The translations under genes were made by a program, and so were the position numbers. Positions 6,326 through 57,534 of a stretch of DNA of 64,000 nucleotides are shown piece by piece (position 1 is the stretch's first letter; each line of letters opens with the position of its first letter). This DNA is from Pseudomonas viridiflava (GTDB lineage Bacteria > Pseudomonadota > Gammaproteobacteria > Pseudomonadales > Pseudomonadaceae). The DNA lies in contig NZ_UPSE01000161.1 in assembly GCF_900573885.1 (NCBI RefSeq), positions 124,001-188,000 of the forward strand, given 5' to 3'. The notes beneath the pieces are model-generated. The model saw nothing but the letters and a program-made list of their open reading frames with translations. It had not been told where the DNA came from and made no database searches.

Positions 6326-7981
6326 ATGTCCCCCGCCATCATCATCCTCGGCACCGGCGCCCTGACCACCGCGCGGCGCATTCAAGCGCTTTACCCGGGC
6401 GCGCAGGTATACGGCCTGAACGACCGCGTAAGCGCCGATATCGGCTACAGCGACTTCGGCAGCCAACTCCGTGAGCTGTACCAAAGCAACAGCCCGATCA
6501 TCGCCCTGTGTGCTGCCGGCATCGTCATCCGCTGCCTCGCGCCCTTGCTGCAAACCAAAGGCGCCGAACCGCCTGTGCTCGCGGTTGCCGAAGACGGCAG
6601 CGCCGTGGTGCCGCTGCTCGGCGGCCTCGCTGGAGTGAACACGCTGGCTCGGGAAATTGCCGCTGAGCTGGCCGTGGCCCCGGCCATCACCACCAGCGGC
6701 GAGCTGCGCTTCGACACGTGCGTGCTCAACCCGCCAAGTGGCTATGTGCTGGGCGATATCGAGCAGGGCAAACGTTTTGTTTCGTCATTGCTCGGCGGTG
6801 AACACGTGCGCATCGAAGGCGCGGCGCCCTGGCTGGAACAGGCCCGCCTGCCGCTGGCCGACGACGCCCAGCTGCGCATTCGCATCAGCACCGATGCCAT
6901 CAGCAGCGCCGACGAATTACTCATCCATCCGCGCAGCGTAGTGGCGCTCAACCCGCCAGCCGATGTGCAAGCCATCGAACACAGCCTGAGCGCCGCCGGC
7001 ATCAGCGCCCATGCCCTCGCCTGCCTGCTCTGCACCCGCGAACGAATGACCGACGGCGCCCTGCACGCCACCGCCGAACAGCTCGGCGTGCCGCTGCGGT
7101 TCAGTGACGAACTGGCCTTGAGCGACGCGCACCGTCTGTTGGAAAGCGAAGGCCTGACGCTGGCGATCGCCGAGCAACCCGTGGTTATCCACAGCCTCGG
7201 CCAGCCCCGTGGCCGGCTGACCGTCGTGGGTCTTGGCCCCGGCGATGCCGCCTTCACTGCGCCGGCCGTAAAGCGTGCGCTGGCCGAAGCCGAAGACGTG
7301 CTCGGCTACGAAACCTACGTCACCATGGCCGGGCCGTTCCGCCCGGATCAGGTGCTACACAACAGCGACAACCGCGAAGAACTGGCGCGCTCCCGCCATG
7401 CTTTCGAATTGGCAGCGAGCGGCCGGCGCGTGGTGGTGGTGTCGTCCGGCGACCCCGGCGTATTTGCCATGGCCGCGGCGGTGCTGGAAGCGCTGGAGGC
7501 GAGCAGCGATGCGCACTGGCATGCTGTGGAATTGCAGGTACTGCCCGGCGTGTCTGCCTCGCTGGCCACCGCGGCAAAAGCCGGCGCGCCGCTGGGCCAC
7601 GACTTCTGCATGATCTCGCTTTCCGACAACCTCAAGCCATGGGACGTGATCGAGTTGCGCTTGAAACACGCCACCCTCGCTGACCTGGCGCTGGCCTTCT
7701 ACAACCCGATTTCTCGCGCACGCCCGTGGCAGCTGGGCCGTGCGCTGGATGTGGTGCGCGAACAACGCAGCCCCGAAACGGTGGTGGTGCTCGGCCGCGA
7801 CATCGGCCGCCCCGCCGAAGCGCTGACCGTGACCACACTCGGCGAGCTGCGCCCGGAGATGGTCGACATGCGCACCATGGTGATCATCGGCTCCAGCACC
7901 ACCCGCCGCTTCGCCAAGGCGGGCAGTGAAGTGGATTGGGTGTATACGCCGAGGTCGTATCCGGCTACTCGCTCTTCTTGA
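6326..7981 (+). CDS. cobJ: CbiG-CobJ fusion: precorrin-3B C17-methyltransferase
   Basis: A 551-residue fusion. Residues 1 to about 285 resemble cobalamin protein CbiG (CAAGIVIR and EDGSAVVPLLGGLAGVN are CbiG N-terminal signatures; the part around 210-280 resembles the CbiG C-terminal/CobE domain). From about residue 293 a tetrapyrrole methylase domain starts with GRLTVVGLGPGD and continues with SSGDPGVFAMA and LPGVSAS; it contracts the ring and methylates C-17. ATG at 6326 is preferred over the upstream open frame because upstream is repeat DNA. The last 17 bases overlap the convergent gene at 7965. A perfect DnaA box lies inside at 7185-7193. Confidence 0.94.
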   Translation: MSPAIIILGTGALTTARRIQALYPGAQVYGLNDRVSADIGYSDFGSQLRELYQSNSPIIALCAAGIVIRCLAPLLQTKGAEPPVLAVAEDGSAVVPLLGGLAGVNTLAREIAAELAVAPAITTSGELRFDTCVLNPPSGYVLGDIEQGKRFVSSLLGGEHVRIEGAAPWLEQARLPLADDAQLRIRISTDAISSADELLIHPRSVVALNPPADVQAIEHSLSAAGISAHALACLLCTRERMTDGALHATAEQLGVPLRFSDELALSDAHRLLESEGLTLAIAEQPVVIHSLGQPRGRLTVVGLGPGDAAFTAPAVKRALAEAEDVLGYETYVTMAGPFRPDQVLHNSDNREELARSRHAFELAASGRRVVVVSSGDPGVFAMAAAVLEALEASSDAHWHAVELQVLPGVSASLATAAKAGAPLGHDFCMISLSDNLKPWDVIELRLKHATLADLALAFYNPISRARPWQLGRALDVVREQRSPETVVVLGRDIGRPAEALTVTTLGELRPEMVDMRTMVIIGSSTTRRFAKAGSEVDWVYTPRSYPATRSS

Positions 7982-8870
7982 ACCGATAGAACAGGTTCGG
8001 CTCGCTCACCAGAAACAGATCGCCATTGCTGCCCATGGCCATGCCTTCGGCCTGCGGAATGTCGGCTTTCAGGCCCTGATTGCCGGCACGCAGGTTGAGG
8101 CTGCTGAGTGGCTCACCTTTCTGGTCAAGCTCGACAACCATTTTCGACTCGTCCGAAAGCGCCCACAGGTGCTGAGTTTCGGCGTCGTAGTAGAGACTGG
8201 AAAGGTCGGTGAGGAACAAGCGTTTGTCGCGCTCGGGGTCGGTACGCACTTGCAGGCGCAGGGGGCCAGGGCCGTGCTGCATAAAGCCGCTGACCTCGAA
8301 AATACGCATGGGGTCGCGTTCTTTAGCGATGAAAAGGCGCTGATTGGCCGAGTCGAATGCCAGGCCTTCGAAGCCTTTGTTTTCTTCGCCGACGCTGCTC
8401 AGGTCGAGCTGATGGGCATTGATAGGGTCGTTGATGTCGATGACGGTGGTGGCATCGTTGATGTGCACTTCGGTAAGCCGGCGGCGACGTTCTTCGACGA
8501 TCACATACACGCCAGGGCGCACGTATTCGATGGCTTCCGGATCTTTGAAACCTTCCAGGGGAATGCGCCGCAGCACATCGCCCTCAAGCGACAGTTCGAG
8601 AAAGTGCGGACGCTGGTTGGTCACGCTGACCAGGGTGTTTCGCTCGGGGTCGTACGACAGCGCCGACACATTGGTTTCATCGCCAATGGCGCGACCTTCT
8701 ATATCGACGTAGTAACCCGGCAGCCGTTGCGCGCTGGCAGGGTTGTCCGCTTGCTCAAGCTGAAACCAGACGCGCTCGAAGTAGCGGTTGTGCTGGGCCA
8801 TTGCCGCAGTGCTGACCAGCGCCAGGGCCAGACAGCCTTGCACCGCTCTGGAAGCAAACAGGCCTTTCAT
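7965..8870 (-). CDS. SdiA-regulated (YjiK-type) exported beta-propeller-like protein
   Basis: A 301-residue protein with a signal peptide (residues 1 to about 25, ending in STAAMAQ). The mature part has repeated strands of the form LSYDPERNTLVSVTNQRP, LAFDSANQRLFIAKERDP and LYYDAETQHLWALSDES, a repeated-blade pattern of the SdiA-regulated family, which is expected to sit in the periplasm or envelope. Its job is not known. It is convergent with cobJ and overlaps its last 17 bases, so the two 3' ends could form antisense RNA. The gene is alone between cobJ and glmS. Confidence 0.8.
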   Translation of the reverse strand: MKGLFASRAVQGCLALALVSTAAMAQHNRYFERVWFQLEQADNPASAQRLPGYYVDIEGRAIGDETNVSALSYDPERNTLVSVTNQRPHFLELSLEGDVLRRIPLEGFKDPEAIEYVRPGVYVIVEERRRRLTEVHINDATTVIDINDPINAHQLDLSSVGEENKGFEGLAFDSANQRLFIAKERDPMRIFEVSGFMQHGPGPLRLQVRTDPERDKRLFLTDLSSLYYDAETQHLWALSDESKMVVELDQKGEPLSSLNLRAGNQGLKADIPQAEGMAMGSNGDLFLVSEPNLFYRFKKSE

Positions 8871-8996
8871 TTAACGCTCCACGCTTACTGAGTGCCGCCG
8901 ATTATGGCGTACGGCTATTACAGAATGAGTTGTAATAGTTGACCGCAGGTTTCAGAGGCGAAGCGGGGCAATTAGTTCGTTGTGTAAGACAGAAAG

Positions 8997-9025
8997 CAGG
9001 TGTGGATAACTGTTATCCACACCTG
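8997..9025. terminator. Perfect 14-bp palindrome after glmS made of two facing DnaA boxes; likely glmS terminator
   Basis: Positions 8997-9010 and 9012-9025 are perfect inverse complements around a single central base, so the transcript of glmS would fold into a 14-bp stem. The arms contain perfect DnaA boxes, TGTGGATAA at 9001-9009 and TTATCCACA at 9013-9021. On the minus strand the stem is followed by CTTTCTGTCTT, a weak T-rich tail. The hairpin starts 8 bases after the glmS stop. Termination is inferred from position; DnaA binding is inferred from the match to the 9-mer. Confidence 0.75.
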
Positions 9026-9070
9026 CCTGTGGTTATTCCACCGTTACGCTTTTCGCCAGGTTGCGCGGCT
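9000..9070 (-). other. attTn7 (vacant Tn7 attachment site)
   Basis: The end of glmS encodes [11 protein letters not shown], the conserved sequence whose DNA is recognised by TnsD. Tn7 and its relatives are known to insert about 25 bases past the glmS stop in Pseudomonas, which here is about 9008, inside the DnaA-box palindrome. There is no transposon end or extra DNA, so the site is empty. Confidence 0.8.
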
Positions 9071-10883
9071 GGTCGACGTCTGTACCGCGCAGTACGGCGA
9101 CGTAGTACGAGAGCAATTGCAGCGGCACGGTGTAGAGAATCGGCGCCAGCGCGTCGCTGATGTGCGGCATGTTCACCACGTGAGTGCCTTCGCCATTGCT
9201 CATGCCGGCCTGGCCGTCGGCAAACACGATCAGCTCACCGCCACGGGCGCGCACTTCCTGCAGGTTGGATTTGAGCTTTTCCAGTAGCTCGTTGTTTGGC
9301 GCCACGGTGACCACAGGCATGTCGCTGTCCACCAGCGCCAGCGGCCCGTGTTTCAGTTCGCCGGCGGGGTAAGCCTCAGCGTGGATGTACGAAATTTCCT
9401 TGAGCTTGAGCGCGCCTTCCATCGCCACCGGGTACTGGGCGCCGCGGCCGAGGAACAGGGCGTGGTGCTTTTCAGCGAACAGTTCGGCGATTTTCTCGAC
9501 CGTGGCATCCATGGCCAACGCTTCACCTAAGCGCGTGGGCAGGCGGCGCAGTTCGTCTACCAGGCCGGCTTCCACGCCGGCTGCCAAGGTGCCGCGGACT
9601 TGCCCAAGGGACAGGGTGAGCAGCATCAACGCCACCAGCTGAGTGGTGAACGCCTTGGTGGAGGCGACGCCGATTTCCGGGCCGGCTTGGGTGAGCAGGG
9701 TCAGGTCGGACTCACGCACCAGCGAGCTGATGCCAACGTTGCAGATCGCCAGGCTCGCCAGGTAACCGCCGGCGCCGGCAGGCTTGGCTTTGCCGTTGCG
9801 CAAGGCGGCCAAGGTGTCGGCGGTTTCACCGGACTGCGAGATGCTGACGAACAGCGTGCCCGGTTGAACCACCACTTTGCGGTAGCGGAATTCGCTGGCG
9901 ACTTCGACCTGGCAAGGGATGCCGGCAAACTCTTCGAGCCAGTAACGGGCAACCATACCGGCGTGGAAGCTGGTGCCGCAGGCGACGATCTGCACGTTCT
10001 GCACCTTGGCAAACAGCTCGGCAGCTTGCGGGCCAAACGCCTGAACGAGGACGTGGTCGGCACCGAGGCGGCCTTCCAGAGTGCGTTGTACCACCACCGG
10101 TTGCTCGTGAATTTCCTTGAGCATGAAGTGGCGGTAAGCACCTTTGTCGGCCGCCTCGGCGCCCTCGTGGTACTGCACGCTTTCACGCACCACCGGCTCG
10201 CCGGCGACGTTCCAGATCTGCACGCTGTCGCGGTGGATCTCAGCGATGTCGCCTTCTTCCAGGTACATGAAACGGTCGGTGACCTGGCGCAGGGCCAACT
10301 GGTCGGAGGCGAGGAAGTTTTCACCCAGGCCCAAACCAATCACCAGCGGGCTGCCGCTGCGGGCGGCGAGCAGGCGGTCGGGTTGTTTGGCGCTGATCAC
10401 CGCCAGGCCATAGGCACCGTGCAGTTCCTTGACGGTGGCTTTGAGTGCCACAGTAAGGTCGCCGAGCGCTTTCAGCTTGTGGTCGAGCAGGTGGACGATC
10501 ACTTCGGTGTCGGTGTCCGAAGTGAACACATAACCAAGCGCTTGCAGCTGTTTGCGTAGCGCTTCGTGGTTTTCGATGATGCCGTTGTGCACAACGGCCA
10601 GATCGCTGCCGGAAAAATGCGGGTGGGCGTTGCGCTCGCTCGGCGCGCCATGGGTGGCCCAGCGGGTGTGGGCAATACCGAGGCGGCCGGCCAGCGGTTC
10701 AGCGGCCAGAGCCTGTTCCAGCTCGCTGACTTTACCCACACGGCGGCGGCGCTCGAGCACATTGTCATTGCTGAACACGGCCAGCCCGGCGCTGTCGTAG
10801 CCGCGGTATTCGAGACGTTTCAGACCTTCCACCAGAATGGCGGTGATGTTGCGTTCAGCCACTGCGCCGACGATGCCACACAT
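9033..10883 (-). CDS. glmS: Glutamine--fructose-6-phosphate aminotransferase (isomerizing)
   Basis: A 616-residue cytoplasmic enzyme making glucosamine-6-phosphate, first step to UDP-GlcNAc for peptidoglycan and LPS. It starts MCGIVGAV, so Cys2 is the N-terminal nucleophile of the glutaminase domain (about 1-240). Two SIS sugar-isomerase domains follow, with [11 protein letters not shown] and the late segment [17 protein letters not shown], and the conserved tail ends SVTVE. The length is a few residues above the usual 609-611. It lies 10 bases after glmR, so the two form one unit; no glmS ribozyme can fit in that gap. Confidence 0.98.
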
Positions 10884-11842: not shown

Positions 11843-13201
11843 CTATTTCTTGACGGGACGCTTCCAGCCTTCGATGTTGCGCTGTTTGGCGCGGCCGACG
11901 CCGAGGGTTTCGGCAGGAATGTCGGCGGTGATCACGGAGCCGGCGCCTGTGGTGGCGCCGTCGCCGAGGGTGACCGGCGCTACCAGTGCGCTGTTGGAGC
12001 CGATAAAGACGTCGGCGCCCAACACGGTGCGGTGCTTGTTGGCGCCGTCGTAGTTGCAGGTGATGGTGCCGGCACCGATGTTGGTGCGGGCGCCGATTTG
12101 GGCGTCACCCAGGTAACTCAGATGCCCGGCCTTGGCGCCTTCGCCCAGTACCGCATTTTTAAGCTCAACAAAGTTACCCACATGGGCCCTGGCGCCCAGA
12201 ACCGAGCCGGGACGCAGCCGCGCAAACGGGCCACAGTCGGCGCCTTCGCCCAGTTCGGCGCCTTCCAGATGGCTGTTGGCTTTGACGATGGCGCCGTTGC
12301 GCAGCGTGGTGTTCTTGATCACGCAGTTGGGGCCGATCTGCACGTTGTCTTCAATGACCACGCGGCCTTCGAGGATCACGTTGATATCGACGAGCACATC
12401 ACGGCCGACCGTTACTTCACCGCGCACATCGAAACGGGCAGGGTCGATCAGCGTCACGCCCTGGGCCATCAGTCGGCGGGCGGCGCGGTATTGGAAGTGG
12501 CGCTCGAGCTGAGCCAGCTGGATGCGGTCGTTGGCGCCGAGCACTTCCATCTCGTCATTGGCTTGCTCGGTGGCCACGACCAGCCCATCGGCGACGGCCA
12601 TGGCAATCACGTCGGTGAGGTAGTACTCGCCCTGGGCGTTGCTGTTGGACAGGCGACCCAGCCACTCGGCCAGACGCTTACCGGGCACGGCGAGAATGCC
12701 GGTGTTGCCTTCGCGAATGGCGCGCTGGGCATCGTTAGCGTCTTTGTGTTCGACGATGGCCTGCACGCTGCCCTGCGCGTTGCGCACGATACGACCGTAG
12801 CCGGTCGGGTCAGCGAGCTCGACAGTGAGCAGACCCAGTTGTTGGTCGCTGACCAGCGCCAGAAGGCGCTGCAGGGTCTGCTCTTCAATCAGCGGTACGT
12901 CGCCGTAGAGAATCAGCACTTTCTCAGCGCTCAGTTTCGGCAACGCCTGGGCCACGGCATGGCCGGTGCCGAGTTGTTCGGCTTGCAGCACGAAAGACAG
13001 GTCGGCGGCGGCCAACTGCTCGCGAACCTTGTCGGCGCCATGGCCAATCACCACTTGAAGGCTGCTGGGCTGCAGCTGGCGGGCGGTGTCGATAACGTGT
13101 CCGAGCATGGATTTACCGGCAATAGGGTGCAGCACTTTCGGCAATGCCGAACGCATGCGGGTGCCTTGGCCGGCGGCGAGGATAACGATATCGAGAGACA
13201 T
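11843..13201 (-). CDS. glmU: Bifunctional GlcNAc-1-phosphate uridyltransferase / glucosamine-1-phosphate acetyltransferase
   Basis: A 452-residue enzyme giving UDP-GlcNAc in two steps. The N-terminal uridyltransferase (about 1-228) shows [20 protein letters not shown] at residues 8-27, the nucleotide-binding signature. The C-terminal half has the isoleucine-patch hexapeptide repeats of a left-handed beta helix ([16 protein letters not shown] and later), which forms the acetyltransferase trimer, ending in [10 protein letters not shown]. It is separated from atpC by a strong hairpin terminator, so it has its own promoter in 13202-13327, and from glmR by a REP doublet. Confidence 0.98.
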
Positions 13202-21548: not shown

Positions 21549-22337
21549 TTATGCTTTTGCGGTTCGGGTGGCGCTGCGCTGACGCCGGGACAATTCACCG
21601 GCCAGTGCCAGGTAGGCGAGGGCGCCACGGGATTGCTTGTCGTACGCCAGGGCCGGCATGCCAAAACTTGGCGCCTCGGCCAGGCGGACGTTACGGGGAA
21701 TAACGGTGTCGTACAGCTGATCGCCGAAGTGCGCTTTCAACTGGGCGGACACGTCGTTGGTGAGGCTGATACGCGGGTCGTACATGGTGCGCAGCAGGCC
21801 TTCGATTTTCAGCGAAGGGTTGAGCAGCTTGCCGATGCGCTGGATCGAGTTGACCAGGTCGGTCAGCCCTTCCAGTGCGTAATACTCGCATTGCATCGGA
21901 ATGATCACGCCGTCGGCCGCCACCAGCGCATTCACCGTCAGCATGGACAGCGAAGGCGGGCAATCGATGAGGATGTAATCGTAATTTTCCCGGATTGGCG
22001 CCAACGCCTCGCGCAGACGGTTTTCCTTGGCGGGCATATCCAGCAATGCCACTTCGGCGGCGGTCAGGTCGCGGTTCGCGGGCAGCAGTTGATAACCACC
22101 GTGCTCGGAAAACTGCATGGCCTGCGCCAGGTCGCATTCGCCGATCAGCACGTCGTACACCGAGTGCTCCAAGGCCAACTTATCCACACCGCTGCCGGTA
22201 GTGGCGTTGCCTTGGGGATCCAGATCGATCAGCAAGACACGGCGCTTGGTTGCCACCAGCGATGCAGCGAGGTTGATGCACGTAGTGGTCTTGGCCACAC
22301 CGCCTTTCTGGTTGGCGATGGCGATTACTTTAGCCAT
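21549..22337 (-). CDS. parA: Chromosome partitioning ATPase ParA (Soj type)
   Basis: A 262-residue ATPase that binds DNA nonspecifically and moves ParB-parS complexes so that new origins separate. The deviant Walker A motif KGGVAKTT is at residues 11-18, with LLIDLDPQGNAT (residues 36-47) and ILIDCPPSLS as further nucleotide motifs. The gap to parB is 9 bases. A perfect DnaA box occurs inside the coding sequence at 22180-22188. Confidence 0.98.
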   Translation of the reverse strand: MAKVIAIANQKGGVAKTTTCINLAASLVATKRRVLLIDLDPQGNATTGSGVDKLALEHSVYDVLIGECDLAQAMQFSEHGGYQLLPANRDLTAAEVALLDMPAKENRLREALAPIRENYDYILIDCPPSLSMLTVNALVAADGVIIPMQCEYYALEGLTDLVNSIQRIGKLLNPSLKIEGLLRTMYDPRISLTNDVSAQLKAHFGDQLYDTVIPRNVRLAEAPSFGMPALAYDKQSRGALAYLALAGELSRRQRSATRTAKA

Positions 22338-22355: not shown

Positions 22356-23003
22356 TCATATGATGCGGCGCAGTATCAACAGATGCCGTTGACCTTGGCA
22401 ACCGGGAACCTTGAGCACGTGTGTTGCAGCCAATTCAAAGTCGGCAGGCAGCGCTTGCAGCTCGTCGTCGGGGTGCACGCCTTTCATGGCCAGCCAACGG
22501 GTATCCGTGTCGCCAAGGTGCCGGGTCCACTCGGAAAAATCCTGCAGTGAGCTGAAGGCGCGGGAGCAGATGCCGGCAAACGGCAGGGCGGGCGTAAATC
22601 CTTCGACGCGGCTGTGGATAACTTCCAGGTTCGGGAGTTTGAGCTCGAGCTTCACCTGCGTCAGAAATCGCGTTTTCTTGCCGTTGGAATCGAGCAAGGT
22701 GAAGTGGCGGTCGGGAAACATGATCGCCAACGGAATGCCGGGCATGCCACCGCCGCTGCCAACGTCCAGCCAGGTCGCGCCGCCTTCGGCAACGTGAGGA
22801 ACCACGCTCAGGCTGTCGAGCAGATGGCGCGAAACCATCTCGTCCGGGTCACGCACAGCGGTCAGGTTGTAGGCCTTGTTCCACTTGATCAGCAACGCGA
22901 GGTAGCCCAACAGATGGGTGTGTTGCTGTCCGGTCAGGGCAACGTCCAGCTCGGCGGCGCCACGGGACAATTCTTCAGCATGTTGTGCGCTAACCAGAGA
23001 CAT
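22356..23003 (-). CDS. rsmG: 16S rRNA (guanine527-N7)-methyltransferase
   Basis: A 215-residue SAM enzyme that methylates G527 of 16S rRNA; its loss gives low-level streptomycin resistance in other bacteria. The SAM motif is [16 protein letters not shown] near residues 79-94, preceded by [15 protein letters not shown]. The start overlaps the mnmG stop by one base (TGATG), so it is translationally coupled to it. A perfect DnaA box lies at 22613-22621. Confidence 0.97.
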
Positions 23004-24898
23004 CAGGCGCTTTGCTCCAGCTCACGACCGGCACTGCGTTTTTTCAGGTTGATCATCAACAAGGAAATGGCAGCCGGCGTTACACCCGGAATTCGCGAGG
23101 CCTGACCCAGCGTTTCCGGGCGGCTTTGGCTGAGCTTGCTCTGAATTTCCTTGGAAAGACCGGCAATGGCGGTGTAGTCGATGTCCGCTGGCAGCTTGGT
23201 GTTTTCGCTGGCACGCAGGCGGGCAATTTCGTCTTGCTGGCGGTCAATGTAGCCGGCGTACTTGGTTTTGATTTCGACCTGCTCGGACACCTGCGGATCG
23301 TCATGGCCCGGGCCAGTCACTCCAATCAAGCCGGCGTAGTCCACTTCAGGACGGGTCAGCAGGCTCATCAGGTTGTATTCGTGCGTCAGCGGCGTACCGA
23401 AGCGCGCGGAAATGGCATCACCTTCAGGCGTATTCGGGCGCACCCAGGTGCTCTTCAGCCGTTGTTCTTCACGCTCGATGCCTTCGCGTTTGGCACAGAA
23501 GGCCGCCCAGCGACGGTCGTCGACCAGTCCCAGCTCGCGACCTTTTTCGGTCAGGCGCAGATCGGCGTTGTCTTCACGCAAGATCAGGCGGTACTCGGCT
23601 CGGGAAGTGAACATTCGGTACGGCTCTTGGGTGCCGAGGGTGATCAGGTCATCAACGAGGACGCCGATATACGCTTCGTCGCGACGTGGACACCAGCTGT
23701 CTTTGCCCTGAGCTCGCAACGCGGCATTGGCACCAGCCAACAGCCCCTGAGCGCCGGCTTCTTCGTAACCGGTGGTGCCGTTGATCTGGCCGGCAAAGAA
23801 CAGCCCGGCAATAACCTTGGTTTCGAGGCTGTATTTGAGATCGCGCGGGTCGAAGTAGTCGTATTCGATGGCGTAACCCGGACGAACGATGTGGGCGTTT
23901 TCCATGCCGCGGATCGAACGAACCAGTTCCAGTTGCACATCAAAAGGCAGTGAGGTCGAGATGCCGTTCGGATACAGCTCGTGGGTGTTCAAGCCTTCGG
24001 GCTCGATAAACACCTGGTGGCTGTCCTTGTCGGCGAAGCGGTGAATCTTGTCTTCGATCGACGGGCAGTAGCGTGGGCCAATGCCTTCGATCACACCGGA
24101 ATACATCGGCGAGCGGTTGAGATTCGCCGCAATGATTTCGTGGGTGCGTGCGTTGGTATGGGTGATCCAACAGCTCACCTGACGTGGATGCTGTTCTTTG
24201 TTGCCAAGGAACGACATGACAGGAATGGGCGTATCACCCGGCTGTTCGGTCATCACCGAAAAATCTACCGAGCGACCGTCGATGCGTGGCGGAGTACCCG
24301 TTTTCAGGCGACCGACCCGCAGCGGATGCTCGCGAAGACGTTGAGCCAAGGCAATGGAAGGCGGATCGCCCGCGCGGCCACCGGAATGGTTCTGCAAACC
24401 GATGTGGATAAGGCCGCCGAGGAAGGTGCCCGTGGTCAGAACCACGGATTCGGCGAAAAACCTCAGACCCATTTGTGTAACTACACCGCGAACCTGGTCG
24501 TGTTCAACGATCAGGTCGTCGCACGATTGCTGGAATATCCACAGGTTGGGCTGGTTCTCCAGCGTTTCACGGATCGCCGCTTTGTACAGCATGCGGTCAG
24601 CCTGGGCACGGGTTGCACGTACAGCGGGGCCTTTGCGGCTGTTAAGCACACGAAACTGAATGCCGCCCTTGTCGGTGGCTTCAGCCATGGCGCCGCCGAG
24701 CGCGTCGATTTCCTTCACTAGATGGCTCTTGCCGATGCCACCAATCGCCGGGTTGCAGCTCATGTGTCCGAGCGTGTCGACGTTGTGGCTGAGCAGCAAG
24801 GTTTTGACGCCCATCCGTGCAGCAGCAAGCGCTGCTTCAGTGCCGGCATGGCCGCCGCCGATAACGATGACATCAAAACGGGAAGGGAAATCCACCAC
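23003..24898 (-). CDS. mnmG: tRNA uridine-5-carboxymethylaminomethyl modification enzyme MnmG (GidA)
   Basis: A 631-residue FAD enzyme that, with MnmE, modifies the wobble U34 of several tRNAs. The FAD fingerprint [10 protein letters not shown] is at residues 14-23, and the MnmG signatures CNPAIGG (near 48) and [16 protein letters not shown] (near 374) are clear; the C-terminal helical domain that binds MnmE is complete. It begins with tandem GTG codons, of which I took the first (24898). First gene of the mnmG-rsmG-parA-parB unit, next to the origin-like DNA upstream. A perfect DnaA box is inside at 24403-24411. Confidence 0.97.
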
Positions 24899-29519: not shown

Positions 29520-29890
29520 ATTCTCTGATGGATAACGGGTAAATAAAGAATATTAAGAAAGAGAGATTTAAATCTTTCTTGAAATGTTAACTACTTTTAG
29601 CGATCGGTTTTCTGTGGATAAAGCGCCAAAAGCGTTACAGCGCTAGGCCTGGCGCCGATGATAACCCTGTCCAGAAAGGGTGAGTAGCCTGTACCGGAGC
29701 TGCGCATAAGCTGGGGATCGAACGCGTTTTTATCCACAGGCGAATTATTCACCTGTTTTTCCAGTGGCTTGTCCCACGAGCCCAAGGTTAGTTATCCACA
29801 GGGTTTCGCGGTGGGGCGTTTTAACCGGAGAAAATGAATAACACATTGATTTTACGCGTCGAAAAACGATCGTCTCATGTGGATAAGTGC
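29520..29890. other. Chromosomal replication origin oriC (rpmH-dnaA intergenic)
   Basis: This 536-base gap between rpmH and dnaA holds four perfect DnaA boxes: TGTGGATAA 29613-29621, TTATCCACA 29730-29738, TTATCCACA 29792-29800 and TGTGGATAA 29878-29886; a weaker TTATTCACC is at 29745-29753. An A+T-rich stretch at about 29535-29600 is the likely unwinding element. The place and content match the origin known for Pseudomonas. The rest of the gap holds the rpmH promoter on the left and the dnaA promoter and leader on the right. Confidence 0.93.
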
Positions 29891-56595: not shown

Positions 56596-57534
56596 TTAAA
56601 GCTTGGCTTTCACCGCCGCCAGCGCATCACCGCCGTCTTTGGTTTTCACCCCGTCCAGCCAGCTGTTCAGCACGTCCGGATGGGCGCTGATCCAGGCCTT
56701 GGCCGCCTCGGCATTGCTGCCTTTTTTATCGGCCACCTGGGCCATGATGCTGTTCTCCATTTCCTGGGTGAACGTCAGGTTGGTGAGCAGCTTGGCGACG
56801 TTAGGGCACGCCTGTGCATAACCTTTTCGCGTAAGGGTATAAACGCTGCCGCTGGCGCCGAAGTATTTCTCGCCGCCGGTAAGGTATTTCATCTTGAATT
56901 GCACGTTCATGGGGTGCGGCGTCCAGCCCAGGAAGGTAATGAAGCGCTCGCGTTTCACGGCCCGCGCGACCTCCGACAGCATGGCCTGTTCGCTGCTCTC
57001 CACCAGTTTCCATTTACCCAAGTCGAACTCGTTTTTGCTGATGATTTCCTGCAGCGACTGGTTAGCCGGGGCGCCTGCGCCGATGCCGTAAATCTTCTGG
57101 TCGAACTTGTCGGCAAACTTGGCCAGGTCGGCGTAGTCATGCACCCCTGCGGCGTACACATAATCGGGTACAGCCAGCGTGAACTCTGTGCCTTCAAGAT
57201 TTTTCGCGAGCTGCACCACGTCGCCCGGTTTGATGAATTTGTCGTAGTGCGCCTGCTGCGCCGGCATCCAGTTGCCCATGAATACGTCCACCAAACCGTC
57301 CTTCATGCCGCCGTAAATAATCGGCACCGCCAGCGTGTCGATTTTGGCTTTGTAGCCCATGCCGTCGAGCAAAAAGCCGGTCACGGCGTTGGTCACGGCG
57401 ATGTCGCTCCAACCCGGATCGGCCATGCGCACGGTGTCGCACGACTCGGCCGCTTGCGCATGGCCAATCGTCAGCGCCAGCGCGCCGGCGGCTGTGAGCA
57501 AGGCTGTGGATAACTTGGTGGATAAAATGTTCAT
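56596..57534 (-). CDS. choX: ChoX-like choline-binding periplasmic protein
   Basis: A 312-residue ABC-type solute-binding protein. A signal peptide (1 to about 28, GHAQAAESC) precedes the mature form; motifs such as ADPGWSDIAVTNAVTGFLLDGMGY, MGNWMPAQQAHYDKFI and FLGWTPHPMNVQFKMKYL are typical of choline/betaine-type binding proteins (aromatic-rich pockets). No permease or ATPase subunit is next to it, so it would serve a transporter encoded elsewhere. It lies 15 bases after betC. A perfect DnaA box is inside the signal-peptide codons at 57505-57513. Confidence 0.85.
   Translation of the reverse strand: MNILSTKLSTALLTAAGALALTIGHAQAAESCDTVRMADPGWSDIAVTNAVTGFLLDGMGYKAKIDTLAVPIIYGGMKDGLVDVFMGNWMPAQQAHYDKFIKPGDVVQLAKNLEGTEFTLAVPDYVYAAGVHDYADLAKFADKFDQKIYGIGAGAPANQSLQEIISKNEFDLGKWKLVESSEQAMLSEVARAVKRERFITFLGWTPHPMNVQFKMKYLTGGEKYFGASGSVYTLTRKGYAQACPNVAKLLTNLTFTQEMENSIMAQVADKKGSNAEAAKAWISAHPDVLNSWLDGVKTKDGGDALAAVKAKL

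Follow-up and report, generated by a model that had tools for sequence, protein, structure and literature searches.

In the window, by which we mean the whole 64-kb stretch of DNA that was analysed, the gene glmS is followed by a perfect palindrome that carries two exact copies of the consensus DnaA box (TTATCCACA). The features of this locus are as follows.

7965-8870, minus strand: SdiA-regulated family gene (PF06977), next downstream of glmS and in the same direction
8996-9026: perfect 31-base palindrome with 15-bp arms and centre base 9011, forming a hairpin in the glmS transcript
9001-9009, minus strand: DnaA box TTATCCACA, the exact consensus 9-mer
9013-9021, plus strand: DnaA box TTATCCACA, also exact, the divergent partner of the 9001-9009 box across a 3-base gap
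9033-10883, minus strand: glmS, with its stop codon at 9033-9035

The gap between glmS and the SdiA-regulated family gene is 162 bases long, and six bases separate the glmS stop codon from the palindrome. The glmS protein is up to 89% identical to those of the nearest named Pseudomonas relatives, among which the closest records may be missing. The initial annotation of this sequence reported a pair of DnaA boxes within a hairpin just past glmS, and this pair is real, since two exact copies of TTATCCACA lie 3 bases apart. The palindrome is perfect, as had been described, but it extends over 31 bases and not 29. The two boxes had also been said to face each other, which is incorrect: they are divergent, with the 5′ TT ends abutting and the 3′ CACA ends pointing outward. 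An exact pair with a 3-base gap occurs once in the window and in none of 100 dinucleotide-preserving shuffles, and the window contains 11 copies of the single 9-mer where 0.12 would be expected. The estimate of about 21 kb between the pair and oriC agrees with the measured distance of approximately 20.7 kb, the oriC boxes being at 29613-29886. Tn7 inserts about 25 bp past the glmS stop. The earlier arithmetic that placed this point inside the palindrome is right, with the insertion falling near 9008 within one of the boxes, but we regard the placement as incidental.

The inverted pair in related genomes

Our comparison was based on 149 glmS 3′ ends, which were the first by similarity among the 295 of 298 genus genomes that matched (L128 was left out). 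The inverted pair was found after glmS in three of these ends, namely those of the window genome and of two relatives, G120 and G229, and in none of 41 glmS ends from named Pseudomonas or Stutzerimonas species. The inverted pair after glmS thus belongs to a small lineage. G120 and G229 are the two best similarity matches to the window, and both matches run through the palindrome and keep both boxes. Across the three genomes the boxes are identical and the gap between them is 3, 3 and 1 bases. Five of the seven pairs of the outer stem differ: two are changed on both sides, one is changed on a single side and two are broken in G229, while the remaining two are constant. None of the nine stem pairs inside the boxes differs, and this constancy is partly by construction because the three genomes were counted by their exact boxes. 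A comparison across Pseudomonas had been proposed to establish whether the boxes are kept while the flanks vary; its outcome leans towards the boxes being kept, but for the pair itself, with three genomes, it is weak.

We considered the inverted pair as a general design and rejected it. An exact pair with a gap of 0-12 bases is present in 17 of 149 genomes (18 pairs; G229 is outside this sample, and the 18th pair, in G107, is not among the loci read). A recognisable glmS end was present at 2 of the 17 loci read, and several of the others lie in long open frames. A similarity search for the pair lineage matched 3 of 398 genomes; the match in G229 is to another site, approximately 17 kb away from the pair of that genome, and because diverged pairs are missed in this way, the search sets no bound on the frequency of the pair. 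In a separate search for relatives, G120 was the sole match among 57. Other close inverted box pairs were seen several kb upstream of the glmS end (L007, G041:C1:4914221; and G185:C1:4488430).

Single boxes at the stop codons of glmS and glmU

A pattern that places an exact box one base after the glmS stop codon (position +2) matched 89 of 296 genus genomes, and the reversed-pattern control matched none. When the 149 ends were read directly, the exact +2 box was present in 43, and one further end carries the box two bases after the stop. Mismatches to the box at position +2 are distributed sharply (43 ends are exact, a single end has one mismatch, two or three mismatches do not occur, and the other 105 ends have at least four), and the distribution is similar when a shift of a few bases is allowed (44 exact, one with one mismatch, none with two, and six with three). 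The box at the glmS stop is therefore exact or absent. Among the 44 box-bearing ends, a single change is seen across positions +2 to +10, whereas the positions from +12 onward mostly show an entropy of 1.3-2.0 bits, and mostly more than 1.7 bits from +16. Thus, the single exact box at the glmS stop is kept while its downstream flank varies. In the named Pseudomonas and Stutzerimonas set, which may share species with the 149 ends, the +2 box occurs in 14 of 41 ends and a box directly after the stop in two. No box was found in the first 110 bases after glmS in 33 readable ends from other genera (six more were unreadable).

Two short motifs are commoner in the box-bearing glmS ends. ACT is present in 17 of the 43 box-bearing ends and in 14 of the 106 others, and GAATAA in 38 of 43 and 31 of 106, respectively; counted among the 106 are the three genomes with the pair, an end whose box is shifted by one base and an end whose box is at +53. 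We asked whether the +2 box and the glmS end might together form a quasi-palindromic hairpin, and this candidate was set aside as unproven. The box is one T short of a perfect partner, the perfect partner of the glmS end (TTATTCCACA) is present at that position in none of the 149 ends, glmU carries a +2 box without a matching end, and ancestry confounds the ACT and GAATAA counts.

At the usual insertion distance of Tn7, the +2 box precedes the insertion point. By a simple motif, at least two Tn7-like repeats are present in 30 of the 149 glmS ends, and nine of these 30 carry the +2 box. Repeats resembling those of Tn7-type elements start approximately 25-40 bases past the glmS stop at L025, L037, L114, L119, L120, L126, L156 and other loci. 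At a further locus (L310, G274:C8:129000-141000), a complete glmS is followed by approximately 7 kb with genes of the YcaO, TfuA, ThiF and MFS families, and beyond these the last 30 codons of glmS are found again, in a copy that is 77% identical and has a +2 box of its own, as though a duplicate of the glmS end had travelled with an element.

The second recurring place is the stop codon of glmU, which in the window is the following gene.

11843-13201, minus strand: glmU, named from sequence and place

The window glmU, unlike that of other genus genomes, is without an exact box one base after its stop. The corresponding pattern matched 133 of 296 genus genomes and its control none, and the pattern misses other cases because it demands a Lys-Lys end. 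In 18 glmU ends read directly, which include the window and five chosen for having the glmS box, the box lies one base after the stop in seven and a base further on in one more. Both patterns were matched by 63 of the 296 genomes, the glmS pattern only by 26, the glmU pattern only by 70 and neither by 137. In 62 of the 63 genomes with both, the two places are 2.5-3.1 kb apart on one strand, as glmU and glmS should be; the gene identity behind the patterns was checked in part, by this spacing and strand. Because 101 of the 149 glmS ends have no box in either orientation in their first 110 bases, and because 137 genomes match neither pattern, no single site is essential.

Exact boxes around oriC

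The remaining exact boxes of the window, together with the origin region, are listed below.

7185-7193, plus strand: exact box inside a coding frame
22180-22188, plus strand: exact box approximately 7.77 kb from the start of dnaA; a box on that strand and at a similar offset is present in other genus genomes
22613-22621, minus strand: exact box approximately 7.34 kb from the start of dnaA; other genomes have one at a similar offset
24403-24411, minus strand: exact box approximately 5.55 kb from the dnaA start, in the mnmG frame, at about the same offset elsewhere
29613-29886: oriC boxes, four exact copies of TTATCCACA in the gap before dnaA
29949-31430, plus strand: dnaA, named from sequence
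57505-57513, minus strand: exact box on the far side of oriC

Ten complete genomes of the genus were chosen for starting at oriC; five of them carry the glmS box and five do not. Within 40 kb on each side of oriC they contain 16-37 exact boxes each, a total of 290 in 800 kb, and control stretches (two of 20 kb per genome, 400 kb in all ten) contain none. Permuted 9-mers average 0.08-0.24 per 80 kb around oriC. When oriC itself is excluded, the box ranks first in enrichment among 9-mers with at least 60 copies (243 vs. 0), and several of its one-base variants rise alongside it near oriC. Seven further genomes, including G120 and G229, carry 8-20 exact boxes in 40-60 kb of sequence placed by the distance from glmS.

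One complete genome has 156 boxes over 6.3 Mb, of which eight lie in the 3.3 Mb opposite oriC. In G248, 25 of 56 boxes are found within 66 kb on one side of oriC before the contig end (C1, 5127377-5192767), and the distribution is lopsided, since the other side has no box within 58 kb; the interval from 1.5 to 3.5 Mb is also empty. Of the 18 boxes on the contig that carries the window, 14 lie within 50 kb of oriC. The window genome, with 48 exact boxes compared with 16 for the control, is not among the richest. Across the order, 11 of 56 genomes, the window's included, have at least three times as many copies of the 9-mer as of its reversed control; these are counts and not positions, and they indicate that genomes outside the genus can share the excess.

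Of 389 origin-region boxes in 18 sequences, 203 fall in called coding frames and 186 outside them, according to gene calls made by a rough GC-based heuristic that covers 0.803 of the sequence. Fifty-nine of the 186 non-coding boxes lie within 60 bases after a stop codon.

Discussion

The palindrome had been suggested to act as a DnaA-titration site. The suggestion is partly supported: the comparison of genomes favours a putative DnaA site, and because exact boxes crowd the origin region, the looser reading of the palindrome as a titration site fits our observations. We believe that it is probably a lineage-specific double version of an origin-proximal site at which DnaA would be titrated. Exact boxes are concentrated around oriC in the genus, and the glmU and glmS ends are two places where they recur. 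DnaA would bind the origin-proximal boxes and be held there. Boxes close to oriC would be copied soon after the start of replication, so that the sink for DnaA would double early, and this early doubling would help to keep initiation from happening again. The lineage of the window would have converted the site into an inverted pair, which also gives a hairpin at the 3′ end of glmS, and this hairpin may help to end or protect the transcript. What we observe directly are the boxes, their density near oriC, the all-or-none box at the glmS stop and an outer stem with partial compensation; the binding of DnaA, its titration, the effect on initiation and the role of the hairpin in RNA are what we infer. 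Two properties of the data bear on the counts: the genomes are related, and therefore the genome counts do not represent independent events, and exact-match patterns miss variant boxes.

The alternative that survives best is a purely intrinsic terminator of glmS, the stem of which spells DnaA boxes by accident. The hairpin is indeed strong, as had been predicted. The palindrome would give a 16-pair hairpin in the glmS transcript, and the RNA region folds at −29.8 kcal/mol with a z-score of −5.56. The window copy passes a simple terminator scan for a G+C-rich stem followed by a U-tract, and the window and G120, which differ at three of the seven outer stem pairs, both form all seven. Moreover, some perfect stem of at least nine pairs is present within the first 70 bases in 46 of the 149 glmS ends. 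However, the hairpins of G120 and G229 fail the same scan, and two outer pairs are broken in G229. Boxes occur in only 3 of the 46 strong stems, those of the window genome, G120 and G229; a stem whose boxes had decayed was not seen among the 46, and the glmS-end stems flagged for box-like cores are three ordinary terminators. Many glmS ends carry a single box but no such stem, and a terminator-like site is present in the first 110 bases of 19 of the 43 ends with the +2 box compared with 30 of the 106 others. The claim that the palindrome terminates glmS transcription therefore holds for the presence of the hairpin, but the scan is passed by the window copy and not by those of G120 and G229. 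Because only the window copy passes, the explanation as a mere terminator is weak, and we consider it unlikely. A role of the hairpin in ending or protecting the glmS transcript is possible.

By analogy with known cases, DnaA bound at the end of glmS or glmU might instead act as a roadblock that stops RNA polymerase and links transcription to the level of DnaA. Roadblock termination by DnaA is described as known in PMC11317965, and the +2 boxes at glmS and glmU all point in the same direction, which the patterns used to find them required. Nevertheless, exact boxes are also frequent inside coding frames, and a block after glmU would probably starve the genes glmR and glmS that follow it. Boxes after other genes occur in both orientations according to the rough gene calls, and an orientation-dependent roadblock was accordingly rejected as a general rule. 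We find the roadblock explanation distinctly improbable. It is very unlikely that the boxes are functionless products of shared ancestry and base composition near oriC, for although all the compared genomes are related and GAATAA is common to the box-bearing glmS ends, permuted 9-mers are rare in the same regions, the control stretches have no boxes, and the flanks have diverged while the 9-mer has not.

The titration reading can be carried further. In its strongest form, the steep origin-centred gradient of exact boxes would largely time the replication of Pseudomonas, the glmU and glmS ends would be protected docking sites, and the palindrome of the window would be a dual device, a DnaA-binding hairpin that also marks where the glmS transcript ends. 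We put this form forward tentatively, as a possibility that is rather doubtful at present.

An origin bias of DnaA boxes is already known in E. coli; the strength of the bias seen here and the placement at stop codons were not met with in our searches of CC-licensed literature. In the titles and opening abstracts listed there, neither a DnaA box at glmS nor an origin gradient of boxes in Pseudomonas is described, and fuller texts may differ. It has long been asked how bacteria avoid a second start of replication. Titration is hard to test in E. coli, where the chromosomal DnaA boxes are many and loosely defined. In a genus with sharp, exact boxes, some of them at fixed non-coding places (the stops of glmU and glmS, for example), titration could be tested directly by the removal of defined sites. 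Pseudomonas is not known to have sequestration of the SeqA type, and if it lacks it, origin-proximal titration would matter more there.

Comparison with known systems

The sites datA and DARS of E. coli are DnaA-box sites outside oriC that lower or restore the level of active DnaA; datA is a cluster of about five boxes with an IHF site, and DARS has a three-box core with IHF or Fis sites. The palindrome resembles them in being a DnaA-box site outside oriC. However, the initial annotation's proposal of a datA or DARS analogue does not agree with its anatomy, which consists of two inverted exact boxes and no box cluster, with no exact IHF consensus within 8801-9200.

A datA-like candidate was noticed at another locus. 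A 1.3-kb intergenic stretch (G000:C299:54845-55973; L309, 4846-5974) contains six exact boxes in the same orientation and one TTATGCACA, together with a repeated CCACAG...TTGGGG motif. It adjoins a gene of the ornithine cyclodeaminase family and ABC-transporter genes of the liv type, named from sequence. Matching loci have six boxes in G120 and in G229 and two in G093. Pieces of the cluster are matched in 140 of 249 genomes, mostly as short, weak hits, and in G203, G237, G214 and G108 the matches are situated some 0.5-0.6 Mb from the end of the contig. A spaced three-box pattern is common to the eight loci L337-L344, which show no match to the genes neighbouring L309.

Bacillus subtilis has clusters of DnaA boxes near oriC. 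The Pseudomonas arrangement is similar in having several origin-proximal box sites outside oriC, but here they are mostly single boxes, some of which stand at gene ends.

In E. coli, ChIP-seq indicates that DnaA prefers pairs of boxes 2-3 bp apart, modelled in tandem (PMC11317965). Because the pair described here is inverted, with gaps of 3, 3 and 1, this preference does not carry over directly. That paper also mentions a DnaA roadblock at asnC of E. coli. The palindrome is comparable to it in that a DnaA box lies past a gene, within transcribed sequence; it differs in adding a hairpin and in being known from sequence alone.

The closest parallel to our reading is offered by the origin-proximal boxes of E. 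coli and the initiator-titration model. According to PMC12371093, DnaA boxes are over-represented near oriC in E. coli, and titration has been argued from the tracking of single DnaA molecules. The over-representation near oriC is shared with Pseudomonas. In contrast to E. coli K-12, which has two exact boxes in 80 kb, the exact 9-mer alone reaches 16-37 per 80 kb in the ten genomes, a comparison that is not like for like with the E. coli study, in which a wider motif set was counted (PMC12371093). Set against the origin-proximal boxes of E. coli, the recurring box sites at the glmU and glmS stops are a feature of the genomes described here.
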